DNA of 64,000 bases from an uncultured Erysipelotrichaceae bacterium (lineage in GTDB: Bacteria > Bacillota_I > Bacilli_A > RF39 > UBA660): the NCBI GenBank assembly GCA_902764545.1, contig CACWWC010000003.1:1-64000 (forward strand), read 5' to 3'. The notes beneath the pieces were generated by a model. That model had not been told where the DNA came from. It made no database searches and worked only from the letters and a program-made list of their open reading frames with translations. Below are positions 30,740 to 39,662 of the stretch, one piece after another; position 1 is the stretch's first letter; every line of letters starts with the position of its first letter. Both the position numbers and the translations under genes were made by a program.

Positions 30740-31300
30740 ATGAATACTAGAAACGTCAAACAATTAAAAGTATTAATATTTAGTTTAGTCACGATAATAA
30801 CACTAGGTATTGGATATGTTGGAATAACTGCGATTAATTTAGTAATAAATGGAGATGCGACTGCATCTGTAAATAATCAAAATTTCAATGTAAAGTTCTT
30901 GAGTGAAGAAAATGTTACTCCTACAATAACAGGTGAAGGTAATACTGTATCAGTGAAAGATGATATAACTGCAAAATTTAGTGTATCAACTTTAACTGGT
31001 TTAGGTGATAGTGAGGTGGCAACATTTATAGTGAAGAATGAATCAAGTGGATTTGTAGTAGAGTTTGTTGATTGTATAACTGAGATGCAAATGAGAAATA
31101 CGAATACAAATGTGGGAGGATATCCCGCAACACTAGTATTTGATTACCTAAATAATACATTACTAGGACAATTACCAAGCGATTTACAAAGTGTAATAGA
31201 ACCAACAAAGATGTATAATATTTATAATTATACGTCTTTTTCATTGTGCGAACATCTGTTTTATAGTATAATATATACAAATGGTGATTTATATGAATAG
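30740..31300 (+). CDS. Exported pilin/TasA-like protein, possibly truncated
   Basis: 186 residues from ATG 30740, which is preceded by AATAGGAG. A short basic start, a hydrophobic segment (about 12-36: VLIFSLVTIITLGIGYVG) and then a beta-rich exterior with NGDATASVNN resemble the N-terminus of TasA/SipW-dependent or pilin-like fibre proteins. The end is suspicious: the last 25 or so residues are read through an SOS box and the promoter of the next gene, and the stop lies inside that gene. The original C-terminus was probably lost by frameshift or deletion. Confidence 0.5.
   Translation: MNTRNVKQLKVLIFSLVTIITLGIGYVGITAINLVINGDATASVNNQNFNVKFLSEENVTPTITGEGNTVSVKDDITAKFSVSTLTGLGDSEVATFIVKNESSGFVVEFVDCITEMQMRNTNTNVGGYPATLVFDYLNNTLLGQLPSDLQSVIEPTKMYNIYNYTSFSLCEHLFYSIIYTNGDLYE
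31244..31272 (+). promoter_or_regulatory. Promoter with LexA box for the Y-family polymerase
   Basis: TTGTGC (31244-31249) and TATAAT (31267-31272) are 17 bases apart. CGAACATCTGTTTT (31249-31262) between them matches the Gram-positive LexA/DinR consensus CGAACNNNNGTTCG except at the last two bases. LexA bound here would block the promoter until DNA damage. Confidence 0.75.
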
Positions 31301-32777
31301 AGTATATATTTGTATTGATTTAAAAAGTTTTTATGCATCAGTCGAGTGTCAAGAGCGAGGTCTAGATCCTATGGATACTAATTTGGTAGTTGCAGATAAG
31401 TCCCGTACTGAAAAGACTATTTGTCTTGCTGTATCCCCATCCCTAAAGAAATTCGGTATACCAGGTAGAGCAAGGCTTTTTGAAGTGGTACAAAAAATTA
31501 AAGAGGTTAATTTAGAAAGGAGAAAAAAGAATAAATATAAAAAGTTTAGTGGCAAGTCTTATTCTGAAAAGGAATTAAATGCTAATTCTAATTTAGAACT
31601 TGATTATATAATAGCTCCTCCTCAAATGAAAAAATATATGAATTATAGTACTACTATTTATGATGTATACTTAAAATATGTAGCACCAGAAGATATATAC
31701 GCTTATTCCATAGATGAAGTGTTTTGTGATATTACTGCATACTTAAAAACTTATAAAATGACTCCACGAGAAATGATAACTAAAATGATTCAGGATGTAT
31801 ATGAAACAACTGGAATAACTGCAACAGGCGGAATAGGAACAAACATGTATCTTGCAAAAATTGCAATGGATATTGTGGCTAAACATATGGAGCCTAATAA
31901 ATTTGGAGTTAGAATTGCAGGGCTTGATGAAATTACATATAGAAAACTATTGTGGGCACATAAGCCAATTACAAGCTTTTGGCGAGTAGGAAAGGGTATT
32001 GCTAAACGCCTTGCTGATAACAATATGTATACCATGGGAGATGTTGCCAGAAAATCACTAGAAGACGAAGAGTTGCTTTATAAACTATTTGGAGTTAACG
32101 CAGAATATTTAATTGATCATGCCTGGGGCTGGGAACCATGCACCATGAAGGAAGTTAAAAACTTTAAACCAAAAATAAATAGTCTATCAGAAGGTCAAGT
32201 GCTTCACAAACCATATGATTATGAACATACTAAATTAATTGTTAAAGAAATGACTGATAATTTATCATTTGCACTTACTAGCAAAAACTTTGTAACAGAT
32301 CAGTTAGTGTTAGAAATAGGATATGACACAGAAAATATAAAATTCTACAAAGGAGAAATAACGGAAGATAGATATGGCAGGAAAATCCCTAAACATGCCC
32401 ATGGAACAATTAGAATTGATCATAAAACATCTTCATCTAAAATACTAAGAGAGCACGCGATTAAACTATTTGATCAAATTATTAATAAAAAATTATTAGT
32501 CAGAAGAATTTATGTAATAGCAGGAAATATAATAAGTAAAGATAAGGCTCAAAAAGAAAAAGTGTATGAGCAAATAGATTTGTTTACAAATTATGAAGCA
32601 GAAGATAGAAAAAAAACAAAAGAAAAACAAGAGGAAGAAAAAGATAACAATTTACAAGAAGCACTAATAAATATTAAAAATAAGTATGGTAAAAATGCCA
32701 TATTAAAAGGGATGAATTTAGAAGAGGGAGGAACTGCAATTGAAAGAAATGGGCAAGTTGGAGGACACAAGGGCTAA
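31293..32777 (+). CDS. Y-family DNA polymerase (UvrX/DinB-type)
   Basis: 494 residues. The N-terminal CIDLKSFYASVEC and AYSIDEVFCDIT carry the catalytic acids of Y-family polymerases, followed by the TGIGT-like loop, thumb helices and little-finger domain. Length and the YolD partner fit the Bacillus UvrX/YqjW group more than DinB. It performs error-prone bypass of DNA lesions. ATG 31293 is chosen because GGTGATT lies just upstream. The promoter carries an SOS box, so it should be damage-inducible. The next gene overlaps its last 38 bases. Confidence 0.92.
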   Translation: MNRVYICIDLKSFYASVECQERGLDPMDTNLVVADKSRTEKTICLAVSPSLKKFGIPGRARLFEVVQKIKEVNLERRKKNKYKKFSGKSYSEKELNANSNLELDYIIAPPQMKKYMNYSTTIYDVYLKYVAPEDIYAYSIDEVFCDITAYLKTYKMTPREMITKMIQDVYETTGITATGGIGTNMYLAKIAMDIVAKHMEPNKFGVRIAGLDEITYRKLLWAHKPITSFWRVGKGIAKRLADNNMYTMGDVARKSLEDEELLYKLFGVNAEYLIDHAWGWEPCTMKEVKNFKPKINSLSEGQVLHKPYDYEHTKLIVKEMTDNLSFALTSKNFVTDQLVLEIGYDTENIKFYKGEITEDRYGRKIPKHAHGTIRIDHKTSSSKILREHAIKLFDQIINKKLLVRRIYVIAGNIISKDKAQKEKVYEQIDLFTNYEAEDRKKTKEKQEEEKDNNLQEALINIKNKYGKNAILKGMNLEEGGTAIERNGQVGGHKG

Positions 32778-33174
32778 GTTTCCTTATGAAGATATCTTAT
32801 ATTTAGAACATCCGGAACCAAAAAACCATAAAAGACAACCTAAAGAAATGAGAGCGGGCCAATTTTCACCGTTTGCGGCCTTAACAGGATATGGGGAGCA
32901 GGTAAAGGAGACAGAAAGATATACAAGTGGTCAAATATTTCTTGATGAAGAAAGAAAAGATATACTAGATCAAACAATAAGTATGTTAAAAGAAAAATCA
33001 TCAAAAATTGTAATTACATATTTTTCTAAAGATGAAAAAAAACAAGGGGGAGAATATCTAGAAAAACAAGGGACACTAAAAAAAATAGATAGATATAGAA
33101 AAGAAATAATATTCACAGACAATACAAGAATAAAAATTGACAGTATTGTAAATATTAATGTAAATAAATTATAA
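32740..33174 (+). CDS. YolD-like protein
   Basis: 144 residues. The family mark MRAGQFSPFAALTGYGEQVKE is typical of YolD-like proteins, which accompany Y-family polymerases of the UvrX type and are thought to be their accessory factor. A beta-rich C-terminal part follows. TTG 32740 is the likely start (GGGAGG 8 bases upstream). An ATG 9 bases later is possible. It is translationally coupled to the polymerase through a 38-base overlap. Confidence 0.85.
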   Translation: MKEMGKLEDTRAKFPYEDILYLEHPEPKNHKRQPKEMRAGQFSPFAALTGYGEQVKETERYTSGQIFLDEERKDILDQTISMLKEKSSKIVITYFSKDEKKQGGEYLEKQGTLKKIDRYRKEIIFTDNTRIKIDSIVNINVNKL

Positions 33175-33214
33175 TAATTATAAATAATTTGATATACTAA
33201 TAATGGTGATGTAT

Positions 33215-34117
33215 ATGGATTCTAATTTAGTTATAGAAAGAGAAAAACCATATATAGACGATATATGTAATAGATATGGTTATGATAGTAATATAAGACA
33301 TCTTTTATATATTATTATTCCAGCATTCATTATAAAATATGGAATAAAGAAAGAACAATTAGTTTTAAATACATTTAAAAATATCAAAATCATTATTAGT
33401 GAGAAAAAAGATCAATATATTAAAGCTTACTACTCCTCAAGACCAATATTTGAACAAAATAAGTATAAAACTGTAAAAGTGATGGTAATTCAAAATTATG
33501 AAAAAATATCTTTAATAAATCTATTAGACAATCTAGTACATGAATTTAATCATGCAATTAACTCCGAAGTAAATGAAATAAAAGAAACAAAGAATTATCT
33601 ATATCTAAGAACCGGGTTAACATATCGTCTTTATAAGAAAAATCCGCTTAGTTTTATAAGAAAAGACACATCATATATATTAGAAGAAATAATAAATACC
33701 AAGCAAACAGAAGAAATAATCGATATTATTAAATCTTTTAAACCAGCAAACAGTGAAATTAGTAATACAATATATGCGATTAATAATGAGACAAATCATA
33801 AATATAATTCTCAGTCATATTATTTAGAGAGTTACTCTTGCAAGAAAATATTAGAAAACAAAACTTTTATAAATACTTTAGCAAATCTAAGATTAAATGG
33901 AGAGGTATATGAAATAGCAAAATGGTTTGATGATATAGTTGGTAGAGAAGGAACGTATAAAGAATTGATACTCTTATTAAAAGAAATAAATGAATTAGAG
34001 TTAGAATATGCAAACAGGAAAATATTTAAGAGTATTATTTTTAATAAAATAAAATCAACATCAAATAAAATTATGAGAATAGTTGAAAAATTTGATAGAA
34101 GTGTAAATTATAGGTAA
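33215..34117 (+). CDS. HExxH putative zinc metallopeptidase
   Basis: 300 residues. HEFNH (about 107-111) preceded by a hydrophobic stretch is a zinc-peptidase motif, and the acidic LEEIINTKQTEE further on may supply the third ligand. No signal peptide. No wider family recognised. GGTGATGT precedes ATG 33215. It lies 9 bases before the MurL-like gene and so probably belongs to the wall-precursor operon, where it could process a precursor peptide. That role is inference. Confidence 0.5.
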   Translation: MDSNLVIEREKPYIDDICNRYGYDSNIRHLLYIIIPAFIIKYGIKKEQLVLNTFKNIKIIISEKKDQYIKAYYSSRPIFEQNKYKTVKVMVIQNYEKISLINLLDNLVHEFNHAINSEVNEIKETKNYLYLRTGLTYRLYKKNPLSFIRKDTSYILEEIINTKQTEEIIDIIKSFKPANSEISNTIYAINNETNHKYNSQSYYLESYSCKKILENKTFINTLANLRLNGEVYEIAKWFDDIVGREGTYKELILLLKEINELELEYANRKIFKSIIFNKIKSTSNKIMRIVEKFDRSVNYR

Positions 34118-34126
34118 GGTGACATT

Positions 34127-35476
34127 ATGAATGAAAAGTTTAATAAATATAGAGAAAATTATCAAGAGTTTATCTATAGGTCATATAAGTACAATATAGA
34201 TGATAATTTAAATATTGAATATGACTTTGAAATACCTGGATTAGAAACATTTAATCCTAAGATAATTATTCCAAAAAAGTATATAACTAATAACTATAAT
34301 AATGAATATTTAGACTATCTAATATTTAATATAGGATTAATTGAACTAATAAGTTATGTAAAATGTACTTGCTCTAAAAAGATAATTATAGAAGCATCAT
34401 ATATTAATGAAGAACAAATTAAATTTTTAAGTAAGCTATATTATAACGGGCTAGGAGAATTATTATATACAAATGGTATTAATATAAATCAAGATGACTT
34501 ATTTGAAATTATATGTACTCATAAACAGTTTGAACTACCAAAAATCAATTATGAAGGAAAAGGTAATTTAATATGTGTAGGTGGTGGTAAAGATTCTTGT
34601 GTGTCACTAGAATTATTAAAAGAACAAGAAAATAATTCATGTTTATTGATAAATCCAAAAACGCCATCTTTGGAATGCAGTAAAATCGCAGGATATAAAG
34701 ATGATGAGATTATCAAAGTTCAAAGAATTCTTGATAGAAAAATAATTGATTTAAATAATAAAGGATTTTTAAATGGACATACGCCATTTTCTTCACTAGT
34801 AGCTTTCATTTCATATTTAGTAGCCTATTTATCAGGAAAACGAAATATTATCTTATCAAATGAATCAAGCGCAAACGAGTCAACAGTAATCGGTACAAAC
34901 ATTAATCATCAATATTCTAAAACATATGAATTTGAATGTGACTTTAGAGAGTATGCAAGTAAATATTTAAAACTTGATATTAATTACTTCAGCTTATTAA
35001 GAGGGCTATCAGAGTTTAATATTTCAATGTTATTTTCACATTATGAAAAGTATCATATGGCATTTAAAAGCTGCAATTTAGGTAGTAAAGAAAAAGAATG
35101 GATTTGGTGCTGTAACTGTTCGAAATGCCTATTTATATACATTATTTTAAGCCCTTTTCTAGATAAGGATAGGTTAATGAAAATATTTGGAGAAGATCTA
35201 TATGAAAGAAAAGATTTATTAAATATCTTTCAAGAAATATTAGGATACTCAGAAACAAAACCATTTGAATGTGTGGGAACATATGAAGAAGCAAGATATG
35301 CTGTGAGTTTAGTTATAGAAAGTTATAAAGGAGAATTACCATACTTATTAAAGTATTATAAAGATAACTATCCAAAAGAGCTATATAAAACAGAAATACA
35401 AAAATATAACAATAAGAATAATCTAACAGAATACTATGATAAATTAGTTAGAAGAGAGTTGAAAAAGTTTGAATAA
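34127..35476 (+). CDS. murL: MurL-like UDP-MurNAc-L-Ala-L-Glu epimerase
   Basis: 449 residues with an ATP-pyrophosphatase-like core: the P-loop VGGGKDSCVSLELL (about 151-164), HTPFSSLVAF, ILSNESSANES (about 242-252) and NHQYSKTYEFE (about 260-270), then a cysteine cluster WCCNCSKC (C328, C329, C331, C334). This matches my memory of MurL, the enzyme described in Xanthomonas that epimerises the terminal L-Glu of UDP-MurNAc-L-Ala-L-Glu to D-Glu using ATP. The gene lies one gene upstream of a MurD2-like ligase, the enzyme that supplies its substrate. GGTGACATT precedes the ATG. The last 8 bases overlap the next frame. Confidence 0.75.
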   Translation: MNEKFNKYRENYQEFIYRSYKYNIDDNLNIEYDFEIPGLETFNPKIIIPKKYITNNYNNEYLDYLIFNIGLIELISYVKCTCSKKIIIEASYINEEQIKFLSKLYYNGLGELLYTNGININQDDLFEIICTHKQFELPKINYEGKGNLICVGGGKDSCVSLELLKEQENNSCLLINPKTPSLECSKIAGYKDDEIIKVQRILDRKIIDLNNKGFLNGHTPFSSLVAFISYLVAYLSGKRNIILSNESSANESTVIGTNINHQYSKTYEFECDFREYASKYLKLDINYFSLLRGLSEFNISMLFSHYEKYHMAFKSCNLGSKEKEWIWCCNCSKCLFIYIILSPFLDKDRLMKIFGEDLYERKDLLNIFQEILGYSETKPFECVGTYEEARYAVSLVIESYKGELPYLLKYYKDNYPKELYKTEIQKYNNKNNLTEYYDKLVRRELKKFE

Positions 35477-36566
35477 TAAAAGAAATAATGAACTAAAAGA
35501 ATTATTAGAAAAATTCAAAGTAGATAAAACTGCAATTAATATAATTCGTTCGAAGTATCAGCCTAGAGAAGTATTTAAAGTTGCCATAGAAGAAAAAATG
35601 GATGATGTTATTTATATGTTATTTCATCCAATAAAAATTGGTGATGAATATATAATTGCATATGACTTTTATAGTATCCTTTCAGGTACTTTAGATTATG
35701 AAGAAAGACAATATCTAGAAAGGATGCCCAGTAAAATAGACATACCGGATGATAATATTCGAAAGGTTAAATTAAAAAATTCATTAGCACGAGAGATATC
35801 AGGATGGAGTCACCCAATAAATGATGAAAAAGGAGTTGCCTACTACGCAGAACCGGCATGTCTGGATACAATGCTATATCTTTACAGAAATAATATAACA
35901 ACAACAATGAATGATACCGAATGCGTATATGGCGATCATCAAGAAAAAGGAATATGCACAGTTTGGTTCTTATATGAGACCTTAAGTGATGAAAATAAAG
36001 AAATAGCTCATAGATTAATTAGAGATGGATTTGCTAAGTTTATAGAAAATGAGAAGAAAAAAACAATATCAATATACGTCCAATGTAGTGAAGATGACAC
36101 AATTCAAGATGTGAGTGATAAACTATTAAATATTGCAAAGAAATTTAAAAAGCAAATTAATCTAAAAGGTCTATTAACTGAAGATGAATTAATAAACATA
36201 TTGGTTAACCCAGTAAGAAGCTCCCTTTACAATGATACAATGATTCCTAACTCATCCGAAAGTTTTATAGAATTATTCTATTCATATATAGATGAAGGAC
36301 TACTTAGAACAGTAGAATTATCAGATGATGATTATACCTATGAAACTGAAAATATATATGTTCAAACAGAAGATGAAAAAATATATTCTATTATTGATTT
36401 TATAAAAATAATCAAAGAATTAAGACCTGAATCTTTTGAGGATATGTTAGAAAGGATGTCAATATATCACGATAATAAAGAAGATAATTATTGGTTGACG
36501 GAAAAAGACTACAAAAATTACATCAATAGTAAAAAACAATTAGCAATAAGTGAAAATCATAAATAA
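35469..36566 (+). CDS. Unknown protein between murL and murD2
   Basis: 365 residues, starting at TTG 35469 within the end of murL (8-base overlap), so translation is coupled. Predicted soluble, mixed helix and strand, acidic. Short conspicuous stretches are SGWSHPINDEKGVAYYAEPACLD and CVYGDHQEKGICTVWFLYE, where C, H and acidic residues could bind a metal. No family recognised. Position between two enzymes of the same step suggests a role in precursor synthesis or its control, which is inference. Confidence 0.65.
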   Translation: MNNKRNNELKELLEKFKVDKTAINIIRSKYQPREVFKVAIEEKMDDVIYMLFHPIKIGDEYIIAYDFYSILSGTLDYEERQYLERMPSKIDIPDDNIRKVKLKNSLAREISGWSHPINDEKGVAYYAEPACLDTMLYLYRNNITTTMNDTECVYGDHQEKGICTVWFLYETLSDENKEIAHRLIRDGFAKFIENEKKKTISIYVQCSEDDTIQDVSDKLLNIAKKFKKQINLKGLLTEDELINILVNPVRSSLYNDTMIPNSSESFIELFYSYIDEGLLRTVELSDDDYTYETENIYVQTEDEKIYSIIDFIKIIKELRPESFEDMLERMSIYHDNKEDNYWLTEKDYKNYINSKKQLAISENHK

Positions 36567-36583
36567 AAGAGAGATGAATTAAT

Positions 36584-37942
36584 ATGTATAAACAAATAAT
36601 AAATAAACTCAAAGATAAAAAAATAGCTATCCTAGGTTTTGGTAAAGAAGGAAAGTCAACATATAATTTTATAAGAAGATATCTTAATAAGAAAAAATTA
36701 ACTATTATTGATAAAGTAAAGCAAGAAATAAATGATGAATATGTAGATATTATATCAGGAGAAAATTACCTAGAAGGCTTATACAAATATGATTTAATTA
36801 TTAAAAGCCCAGGCATTACACTAAAAGATATAGATATTAGCAATTTCAAAGATAGAATAACATCACAATTAGAACTTGTACTAGAAGTTTATAGAAAGAA
36901 TATAATTGGAATTACAGGAACAAAAGGTAAAAGTACAACAACATCTCTAATTTATGAAATAATAAAAGATCAAAGAGATAAAGTATTTATACTAGGAAAT
37001 ATTGGGAATCCATTGCTTGACAGAGTAGAAGAATATGACGAAAATTCAATTCTAGTAATTGAAATGAGTTCAGATCAATTAGAGTTTGTTGATAAGAGCC
37101 CTCATATAGCAATCATATTAAATTTATTTGAAGATCACTTAGATCACGCGGGGACAATTGAACACTACCATGATAGTAAAATGAATATTTTCAAATATCA
37201 GGATGAGAATGATTATTGTATTTATTCAGATGATAATTATTATTTGCGCCAAAGAATGGAATCGTCCCAATATAAAGGAATAAAATATAACATTAGATTT
37301 GATTATGAGAATTTAAATCAAAATAGTGTAAGAATAAAAGATAAAGAGGTTTATTTAAATAATGAGTTATTGTATACAGATGATGAAAGAAAATTAATCG
37401 GAGATCACAATTTAAAAAATATAATGTTTGCATTAACAGTAGCTAAAATTATGAACTTGAATCTAGATAAAGCAAATAAAATAATAAAAGAATTTAAAGG
37501 TTTAAAATACAGAATGGAATGCATAGGTACTTATGATGATATTACATATTATAATGATACTATTGCAACAGTACCATCCGCAACAATTAGTGCAATTACA
37601 TCAATCAAAAACGTAGATACATTAATATTTGGCGGTATGGATAGAAAAATTGACTATACAGAACTTATAGATTATTTAAAAAACTCAGATATTTCAAATT
37701 TAGTATGTATGCCAACAACTGGCACAAAAATTGGGAAAATACTTGAATTAGAAACTAATAAAAATATTTTTTATACAGATTCATTAGAAGAAGCATATGA
37801 TATAGCTAAAGAGAAAACAAAAAAAGGATACAGCTGTCTATTATCTCCAGCAGCATCAAGCTATGAATATTTTAAAAACTTTGAAGAAAAAGGAAAATAT
37901 TTTGAAAATATTGTGAAAAAAAATAATTTTTCAAACAAATAG
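36584..37942 (+). CDS. murD2: MurD2-like UDP-MurNAc-L-Ala glutamate ligase
   Basis: 452 residues, a Mur ligase with N-terminal UMP-binding domain, central ATPase domain GITGTKGKSTTT (about 109-120), LNLFEDHLDHAG, probable carbamylated K199, and C-terminal domain. In MurD the C-terminal motif INDSKATN helps bind D-Glu. Here it reads YYNDTIATVPSAT (322-334), and the late LSPACAS-type motif reads LSPAASSYE. Both are as I remember for MurD2-type ligases that add L-Glu. With the MurL-like protein two genes upstream, I favour L-Glu ligase. An ordinary D-Glu-adding MurD cannot be excluded from sequence alone. Confidence 0.7.
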   Translation: MYKQIINKLKDKKIAILGFGKEGKSTYNFIRRYLNKKKLTIIDKVKQEINDEYVDIISGENYLEGLYKYDLIIKSPGITLKDIDISNFKDRITSQLELVLEVYRKNIIGITGTKGKSTTTSLIYEIIKDQRDKVFILGNIGNPLLDRVEEYDENSILVIEMSSDQLEFVDKSPHIAIILNLFEDHLDHAGTIEHYHDSKMNIFKYQDENDYCIYSDDNYYLRQRMESSQYKGIKYNIRFDYENLNQNSVRIKDKEVYLNNELLYTDDERKLIGDHNLKNIMFALTVAKIMNLNLDKANKIIKEFKGLKYRMECIGTYDDITYYNDTIATVPSATISAITSIKNVDTLIFGGMDRKIDYTELIDYLKNSDISNLVCMPTTGTKIGKILELETNKNIFYTDSLEEAYDIAKEKTKKGYSCLLSPAASSYEYFKNFEEKGKYFENIVKKNNFSNK

Positions 37943-37994
37943 TTTACTAAATTAAAACATTTTAATATAATATATGCCATTAGGGGGCATTAGT

Positions 37995-39662
37995 ATGGCA
38001 GAAAAATATGTCGCAACAATAATGAAAAGAATATATTCAAAAGATAGGAATTATTTATATGTAGTTAGTCATCCAGCAATCGGTACTGTTGACGAAGAAA
38101 CTAATATTTTTAAAGATGTTTATGGCAATGAATATCTTCCTATGCAAGATAAAAATCTTTTATTAAGTGAGATAACAGATGCATATTATAATATAATAGA
38201 GCTATCAAGAATTAAAGATTACATGCAAGCTGATAGTATAGAAGAGGCAATTTCAGAATATGCAACAGTCTATGGGAGAATATTACACTATGTCACAACA
38301 GAGAATGAAATGAGTATGAATATCAGATTAAATCTAGATATGTTAAAAAATGGTGCAATAGAAGGAATGATGCACCAAGCAAATATAAATGTTCCAAAAG
38401 ATACTCCTGAAGAAACAGAAAATGAAGCTGAAGAGGTAATTCCAAGAATATTATTAGGAAGCGAGATAAGCGAAGAAGTTACAGATTTCATACAAGAAAT
38501 AGTAGAAGGTGAGTATAGTACAAGAGATTTAAAAACAATCAAAGATATTGTTAAAAATCAGAAAGTTGAAATAGAAAGTTTACTTGAAACCATAGACTTA
38601 CAACTTGAAGCAAACGACTCCTCAGTTCTAAGTGATGATAAACCACCTGAAATTACAAATCATATTGATATAAATGATATATACAAAAAGGTAACAAAAA
38701 CATTAATTGCACAAGATGAACCAGCACGAAGAGTTATTGTAGAGATTGCCAGAAAACTTCAAAGTCAAAATATCAATAAAAGAGGACTACTGGTTACAGG
38801 GCTTACCGGAGTAGGTAAAACTAAGCTGATAACTTTGATAGCGAAATATATTAACAGACCATTTATAAAAATAGACTCAACTAGATTAACATCAGTGGGG
38901 TATGTAGGAGATGATATAGAGGAGAAACTATGGGAATTATACATATCATGCGATAGAGACATTAATAGGACAGAAAACGCTATTGTTTTCTTTGATGAAA
39001 TTGATAAGAAGGGATCCAGCAGAAAAGATGATATTGCTGGTACGGCTGTATTAAATTCATTGTTGCCATTTATTGAAGGCTCATCATATTATGCAACTCC
39101 AGATGTAAAGACAAAAAAAGAAGTTGTTAAAATCAACACGAAAAATATGATTGTAATACTTGGTGGAGCTTTTGAAGATGTGTATAAAAATCTGAAAAAT
39201 AAAACTGAAGTAGGTTTTGGAAGAGATATAGATAGTAATCAAAAGGATAGAAAAGCTAAAGTAGAAGACTTTATTAATAATGCAATGATGACTGGTGAAT
39301 TAATGGGAAGAGTATCTATTATTAAACTAAATGATTTAGAAATTAATGATTTAAAAAGAATATTAAATGAATCAGATGAATCAGCCATAAAAATTCAAGA
39401 AAAATTATTTGAAGAACTAGGCGTAAAATTAACCGTAGGAAGTGACTACATTGAAGAAATTGCTACACAAGCATATGAAAGAAAAACAGGCGTAAGAGGA
39501 ATTAATAATGTTGTAGACGAATCAACATGGGAGGCTTATGCAGACGTATATTCAAATGTTGGTCAGTATGAAGAAATTGTTTTAAGTAAAGAAACGGTAG
39601 ACAATCCAAAACAATATAAAAAGATATATAAAACAAAAAAAGAAGGAAGACTCAATGCATAG
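37995..39662 (+). CDS. ClpX/HslU-like AAA+ ATPase
   Basis: 555 residues. Residues 1-215 are an unknown N-terminal region (no zinc-finger cysteines), followed by an AAA+ core: Walker A GLTGVGKT (269-276), TSVGYVGDDIEE (the pore-loop region, as in ClpX), Walker B IVFFDEIDK (330-338), and a C-terminal small domain with KTGVRGINNVVDE. The order and motifs are those of ClpX unfoldases. The absence of the ClpX zinc-binding domain and the new N-terminus make it a distinct variant. ATG 37995 has AGGGGG 8-13 bases upstream. Confidence 0.75.
   Translation: MAEKYVATIMKRIYSKDRNYLYVVSHPAIGTVDEETNIFKDVYGNEYLPMQDKNLLLSEITDAYYNIIELSRIKDYMQADSIEEAISEYATVYGRILHYVTTENEMSMNIRLNLDMLKNGAIEGMMHQANINVPKDTPEETENEAEEVIPRILLGSEISEEVTDFIQEIVEGEYSTRDLKTIKDIVKNQKVEIESLLETIDLQLEANDSSVLSDDKPPEITNHIDINDIYKKVTKTLIAQDEPARRVIVEIARKLQSQNINKRGLLVTGLTGVGKTKLITLIAKYINRPFIKIDSTRLTSVGYVGDDIEEKLWELYISCDRDINRTENAIVFFDEIDKKGSSRKDDIAGTAVLNSLLPFIEGSSYYATPDVKTKKEVVKINTKNMIVILGGAFEDVYKNLKNKTEVGFGRDIDSNQKDRKAKVEDFINNAMMTGELMGRVSIIKLNDLEINDLKRILNESDESAIKIQEKLFEELGVKLTVGSDYIEEIATQAYERKTGVRGINNVVDESTWEAYADVYSNVGQYEEIVLSKETVDNPKQYKKIYKTKKEGRLNA

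Follow-up and report, generated by a model that had tools for sequence, protein, structure and literature searches.

A MurL homologue and a MurD2-type ligase as a probable route to cell-wall D-glutamate in an uncultured Erysipelotrichaceae bacterium

The window analysed here, a stretch of 64,000 nucleotides (contig CACWWC010000003.1, assembly GCA_902764545.1) from an uncultured Erysipelotrichaceae bacterium, carries a homologue of the epimerase MurL and, one gene further downstream, a ligase of the MurD type. In Xanthomonas oryzae, the reactions of such a pair have been demonstrated (XOO_1320/XOO_1319; Feng et al. 2017; PMC8788868, PMC5808125): MurD2 attaches L-glutamate (L-Glu) to the precursor and MurL epimerises it. 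An earlier note, made from the letters of the window, had proposed that D-glutamate (D-Glu) is made in the same way here, on UDP-N-acetylmuramic acid (UDP-MurNAc) and not by the racemase MurI. Both open reading frames (ORFs) are intact.

The MurL homologue and its predicted fold

34127-35476, + strand: MurL homologue, intact ORF of 449 aa
34580-34597, + strand: PP-loop GGGKDS, residues 152-157, proposed ATP pyrophosphatase site, invariant in 65 homologues
34859-34882, + strand: NESSANES, residues 245-252; N245, E246, S248 and A249 invariant in 65 homologues
35072-35128, + strand: four-cysteine site C316-x11-CxxCxxC, proposed zinc site, QueC-like

The NCBIfam model of MurL, NF041275, matches the protein across residues 14-399, near its full length, with an E-value of 1.2e-72 and 245 bits against a model cut-off of 700, so the protein belongs to the wider MurL homology family and not to the Xanthomonadales equivalog. 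The cut-off is reached by no genome of our class sample (n=296). Identity to the annotated Xanthomonas sacchari MurL is 32% across 327 residues. The protein groups with MurL and not with another family, an outcome that the earlier note had considered, and the three motifs it had pointed out are all present. GGGKDS, which it had called a P-loop, is a PP-loop of the ATP pyrophosphatase type and not a Walker P-loop; in a profile comparison it weakly matches the TtuA PP-loop. C316, C328, C331 and C334 are found in 65/65 homologues and in Xanthomonas MurL. The PDB library contained no MurL sequence in a sequence search, and the viral contigs searched with MurL yielded no relative.

The AlphaFold2 model of MurL, built from the alignment of 65 sequences, has a mean predicted local distance difference test score (pLDDT) of 94.9. 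Foldseek aligns it with QatC (E 4.7e-5) and QueC (probability 1.00) and, more weakly, with argininosuccinate synthase and GMP synthase, both PP-loop enzymes. The model thus matches the QueC-like PP-loop ATPase fold of the N-type ATP pyrophosphatase superfamily. E. coli QueC carries C188-x8-CGHCAAC (C-x8-CxxCxxC), and all 65 MurLs carry GGGKDS and a cysteine followed by CxxCxxC. The comparison of the MurL profile with E. coli QueC alone in hhalign was not significant (probability 3.5), so the kinship with QueC rests on the predicted fold and the motifs.

Enzymes of the QueC type adenylate a carboxylate to activate it and yield an amide or nitrile; they do not epimerise. MurL could on these grounds be a pseudo-enzyme, or an unrelated PP-loop amidotransferase accompanying MurD2. 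We regard this as extremely improbable, as about 59 columns are invariant in the alignment of 65 homologues, the PP-loop and the cysteines among them, and the gene order is that of Xanthomonas. For MurL as an epimerase, the predicted QueC-like fold fits the conversion of ATP to AMP observed for the X. oryzae enzyme as well as the adenylate mechanism proposed in a review, which describes MurL as having no known conserved domains (PMC8788868). Our literature search found no paper connecting MurL with QueC or with PP-loop enzymes.

The adjoining ligase and its diagnostic residues

36584-37942, + strand: MurD2-type ligase of 452 aa, intact ORF, the genome's only MurD-type ligase
37133-37135, + strand: Asp184, aligned with X. 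oryzae MurD2 Glu197 and E. coli Asp182; canonical residue retained
37547-37570, + strand: YYNDTIAT, counterpart of the canonical INDSKATN
37562-37564, + strand: Ile327, aligned with E. coli Lys319
37643-37645, + strand: Arg354, aligned with X. oryzae MurD2 Arg358 and E. coli Lys348

The ligase scores 320 bits with TIGR01087 (murD), above the cut-off. It has the MurD fold, its best structural matches are MurDs, and its identity to the annotated X. sacchari MurD2 is 22%. Its residues were compared in an alignment of 82 MurL-linked ligases, X. sacchari MurD2, 39 canonical MurDs of the same families and E. coli MurD, the last numbered as in the literature (gene-product number minus one).

The replacement of INDSKATN by YYNDTIAT, noticed earlier, is present, but the informative change within it is the Ile that stands in place of E. 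coli Lys319. This position holds Ile or Leu in 82/82 MurL-linked ligases; X. sacchari MurD2 has Ile there, and the 39 canonical MurDs have Lys (29), Glu (9) or Val (1). A review reports that E. coli MurD carrying K319T and S. mutans MurD carrying K330T come to accept L-Glu or accept it better (PMC8788868). Judged from the alignment, Ile or Leu at this position would be a one-residue marker that separates the two routes.

Two further positions were considered as MurD2 diagnostics and rejected. Arg at the 358 position is present in 82/82 MurL-linked ligases, yet also in 22/39 canonical relatives. At the Glu197 position, 61/82 MurL-linked ligases share Glu with Xanthomonas and the remaining 21, that of the window included, have Asp.

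In the phylogenetic tree, Xanthomonas MurD2 clusters with the MurL-linked ligases, separately from the canonical MurDs of their families, with a support of 96 in the Shimodaira-Hasegawa-like approximate likelihood ratio test (SH-aLRT). The window ligase falls among the MurL-linked ligases and not among the canonical MurDs of its own family. TIGR01087 scores range from 275 to 320 bits for the MurL-linked ligases of 12 genomes of the class and from 347 to 426 bits for the full-length canonical MurDs of their relatives.

Supply of D-Glu and distribution of the pair

The genome of the window is a metagenome-assembled genome (MAG) of 1.57 Mb, 93.5% complete. It yields no glutamate racemase with TIGR00067 (E<=10) or PF01177 (E<=1), DapF-type racemases not having been searched for, and no class IV (D-amino-acid) aminotransferase with PF01063 at E<=10. 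It encodes exactly four Mur ligases (PF08245). The other three score best as MurF (below the MurF cut-off), MurE and MurC, which leaves no candidate for the Glu step except the window ligase; no second MurD exceeds the cut-off. The search for murI and a second murD, which the earlier note had suggested as a check, thus returned neither, and together with the placement of the ligase in the MurL-linked clade this gives computational support to its claim that D-Glu is made on UDP-MurNAc.

Among the 296 genomes of the class sample, MurL is present in 12, five in the family of the window (own genome included) and seven in a second family. None of these 12 has murI, compared with 118 of the 284 MurL-negative genomes (Fisher p 0.0019). 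The latter set seems to include small mycoplasma-like genomes, probably of wall-less cells to judge by their size and number of contigs, which would make the contrast conservative. In 12/12 MurL-positive genomes, the sole murD over the cut-off adjoins MurL. G228, which belongs to the genus of the window, carries no MurL, and its murD is directly followed by murI. The window ligase is 30% identical to this MurD, versus 63% to the ligase of G082, which belongs to another genus. By sequence, it looks as if one gene pair was swapped for another within the genus.

Several findings weigh against a MurD2-MurL route in this bacterium, besides the MurL score below the model cut-off. The window ligase differs from Xanthomonas in one determinant, the Asp at the Glu197 position. 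As the E197D substitution changes the stereospecificity of X. oryzae MurD2 (PMC8788868), this residue is the main sequence-level doubt, and we therefore call the ligase MurD2-type and treat its use of L-Glu as inferred. The point at which the long Xanthomonas MurD2 branch joins the tree is not firm in the approximately unbiased (AU) test. The negative result for murI does not extend to a DapF-type racemase (PMC5885031), and a murI may have been missed because the MAG is only 93.5% complete. Finally, murI, MurL and the D-amino-acid transaminase (Dat) are also missing from at least 11 relatives whose MurD is canonical, so the absence of murI alone is weak evidence in the family of the window.

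Such findings could be accommodated if the ligase, for all its unusual motif, were an ordinary MurD that adds D-Glu supplied by a missed or DapF-type racemase or by uptake, and MurL were kept for another purpose. The TIGR01087 score over the cut-off, the retained Asp and the relatives that keep a canonical MurD in the absence of murI and MurL are in line with this explanation. We nevertheless consider it unlikely in view of the 12/12 linkage of MurL with the sole MurD and its mutual exclusion with murI, the fixed Ile or Leu that the linked ligases have in common with Xanthomonas MurD2, and the occurrence of MurD-MurI in a sister species where the window species has MurL and a different ligase.

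The 11 relatives that have a canonical MurD but yield no murI (TIGR00067, PF01177), MurL or D-amino-acid transaminase (TIGR01121) are, with their murD loci, G010 (L024), G022 (L033), G055 (L046), G145 (L020), G152 (L047), G159 (L037), G186 (L054), G214 (L027), G221 (L032), G262 (L019) and G269 (L029). In G055, a 915-aa ORF (L046, 106-2853) holds MurD and a second Mur-type ligase fused in one frame.

Beyond the class, the aligned MurLs of the 12 class genomes were used to search genome_contigs, where relatives were confirmed in at least 574 stretches, the best 80 of which were examined. These come from Lachnospiraceae (including Pseudobutyrivibrio xylanivorans DSM 14809), Oscillospiraceae, MAGs of Bacilli and Erysipelotrichaceae, and Bacteroidales. 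The co-occurrence of both genes in a Firmicute, on which the earlier note had remarked, is therefore real but not isolated, and recurs in many genomes of Bacillota and Bacteroidota. In 72 of the best 80 loci, a MurD-type ORF begins no more than 200 nt from the MurL stop, and 56 of these overlap MurL. Of the other eight, one has the ligase 2.7 kb downstream, one lies at a contig end and six, all Bacteroidales, have no ligase nearby. A racemase over the curated cut-off was found in 0/50 genomes of this set, all of them MurL-positive; matches below the cut-off occur in 15/50, the strongest at 78.6 bits (G331).

The six Bacteroidales loci are L107, L120, L122, L127, L131 and L146, and their genomes have no murI matches. 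MurL homologues annotated as hypothetical are also found on Pseudonocardia plasmids (L151, 4761-6161, with 323 bits to NF041275; L153, 2761-4155), where they adjoin a WD40-repeat gene and no ligase. These may act on another substrate.

The pair of the window is flanked and interrupted by two further ORFs:

33203-34117, + strand: upstream ORF with a HEFNH metalloprotease-like motif
35469-36566, + strand: ORF of no family, between MurL and the ligase

Searches of both against Pfam, NCBIfam, PADLOC and PHROGs returned no family. Matches to the ORF that separates MurL from the ligase are confined to 5/291 genomes of the family, own included; this ORF is not found at other MurL loci, and it probably represents an insertion that has no part in the pathway. 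The upstream ORF has no homologue at other MurL loci and is likewise best seen as an insertion. The operon does include two such genes, as described earlier, but they are not part of a conserved unit, and having neither a family nor a conserved association with the pair they were left out of the mechanism.

The presence of these two genes, together with the ligase-less MurL homologues of the Pseudonocardia plasmids and of the six Bacteroidales loci, would suit a pair that serves another gamma-glutamyl or a secondary-metabolite pathway instead of peptidoglycan. This seems very improbable to us. The flanking genes are not conserved, the ligase is the only MurD of a genome that has MurC, MurE and MurF, and in G241 the pair adjoins murE and mraY, in the order MurE-MraY-MurL-ORF-MurD2.

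The ORF between MurL and MurD2 in G241 (L061, 8876-9712) has a Bro-N domain and occupies the same place as the extra ORF of the window. Upstream of the operon, a DinB/UmuC-like polymerase ORF (498 aa, recognised by eye) and then a YolD-like ORF (PF08863, just below the cut-off) lie at 31281-33174 and form a mobile-type SOS repair pair. Directly 3' of the ligase, at 37974-39662, is a ClpX-like AAA ATPase ORF, which scores 184 bits against a ClpX equivalog cut-off of 359.

Proposed pathway and comparison with known systems

Homology, linkage, the absence of racemase and transaminase genes, the single MurD, the residue signature and the predicted folds together point to a route in which cell-wall D-Glu arises from L-Glu that is attached to the precursor and then epimerised. 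We put the probability of this MurD2-MurL route at roughly 0.88, and infer that the window enzymes carry out the same reactions, with a preference for L-Glu, epimerisation and an adenylate mechanism.

In the synthesis of the peptidoglycan precursor, the pair would be responsible for the second amino acid. After addition of L-Glu by the ligase, MurL may use ATP to adenylate the alpha-carboxylate of the attached residue at its QueC-like PP-loop site, with AMP and pyrophosphate as products. Adenylation would make the alpha-hydrogen more acidic, so that the residue could invert to D-Glu, and the step would become one-way once the adenylate is hydrolysed. MurE and MurF would then finish the pentapeptide, so that free D-Glu and MurI would both be dispensable.

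The route itself is known. According to a review, both reactions have also been shown for orthologues from Micromonospora and Salinispora, and the route is described in a few proteobacterial and actinobacterial genera only (PMC8788868). What is added here is its probable presence in Bacillota and Bacteroidota, lineages outside the distribution published in reviews, along with the finding that MurL and murI exclude each other in the class sample, the one-residue marker and the proposed fold-based mechanism for MurL. A broader proposal, that MurD2-MurL is a common D-Glu route of gut Bacillota and Bacteroidota, exchanged as a cassette with murD-murI within a genus, and that a QueC-like MurL drives a one-way epimerisation by adenylation, appears to us reasonably likely.

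MurI is regarded as near-universal and as a drug target. If many Lachnospiraceae, Bacteroidales and gut bacteria related to them use the route, inhibitors of MurI are predicted to be ineffective against them and inhibitors of MurD2 or MurL effective. The Ile/Leu marker at Lys319 would tell the routes apart in genomes annotated merely with murD, and the PP-loop fold suggests a mechanism, open to experimental test, for an enzyme in which no known domain had been described.

Three known systems can be compared with the window pair. Canonical MurD with MurI, as in G228, performs the same biochemical step, and the window ligase has the MurD fold; the canonical enzymes differ at position 319, where they have Lys or Glu, and the murD of G228 adjoins murI. 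QueC and QatC share with MurL the predicted fold, an SGGxDS-type PP-loop and the four-cysteine CxxCxxC site, while MurL has an additional N-terminal region and a proposed outcome of epimerisation and not nitrile or amide formation. The Xanthomonas oryzae pathway has in common with the window an epimerase gene adjoining that of a MurD-type ligase, no murI or D-amino-acid aminotransferase, the PP-loop and cysteine cluster of MurL, Arg at position 358 and Ile at Lys319 (in X. sacchari MurD2). It differs in that the host of the window belongs to Bacillota, in a phylum outside the published distribution, with identities to the X. sacchari proteins of 32% for MurL and 22% for the ligase, Asp at the Glu197 position and an extra ORF between the two genes.

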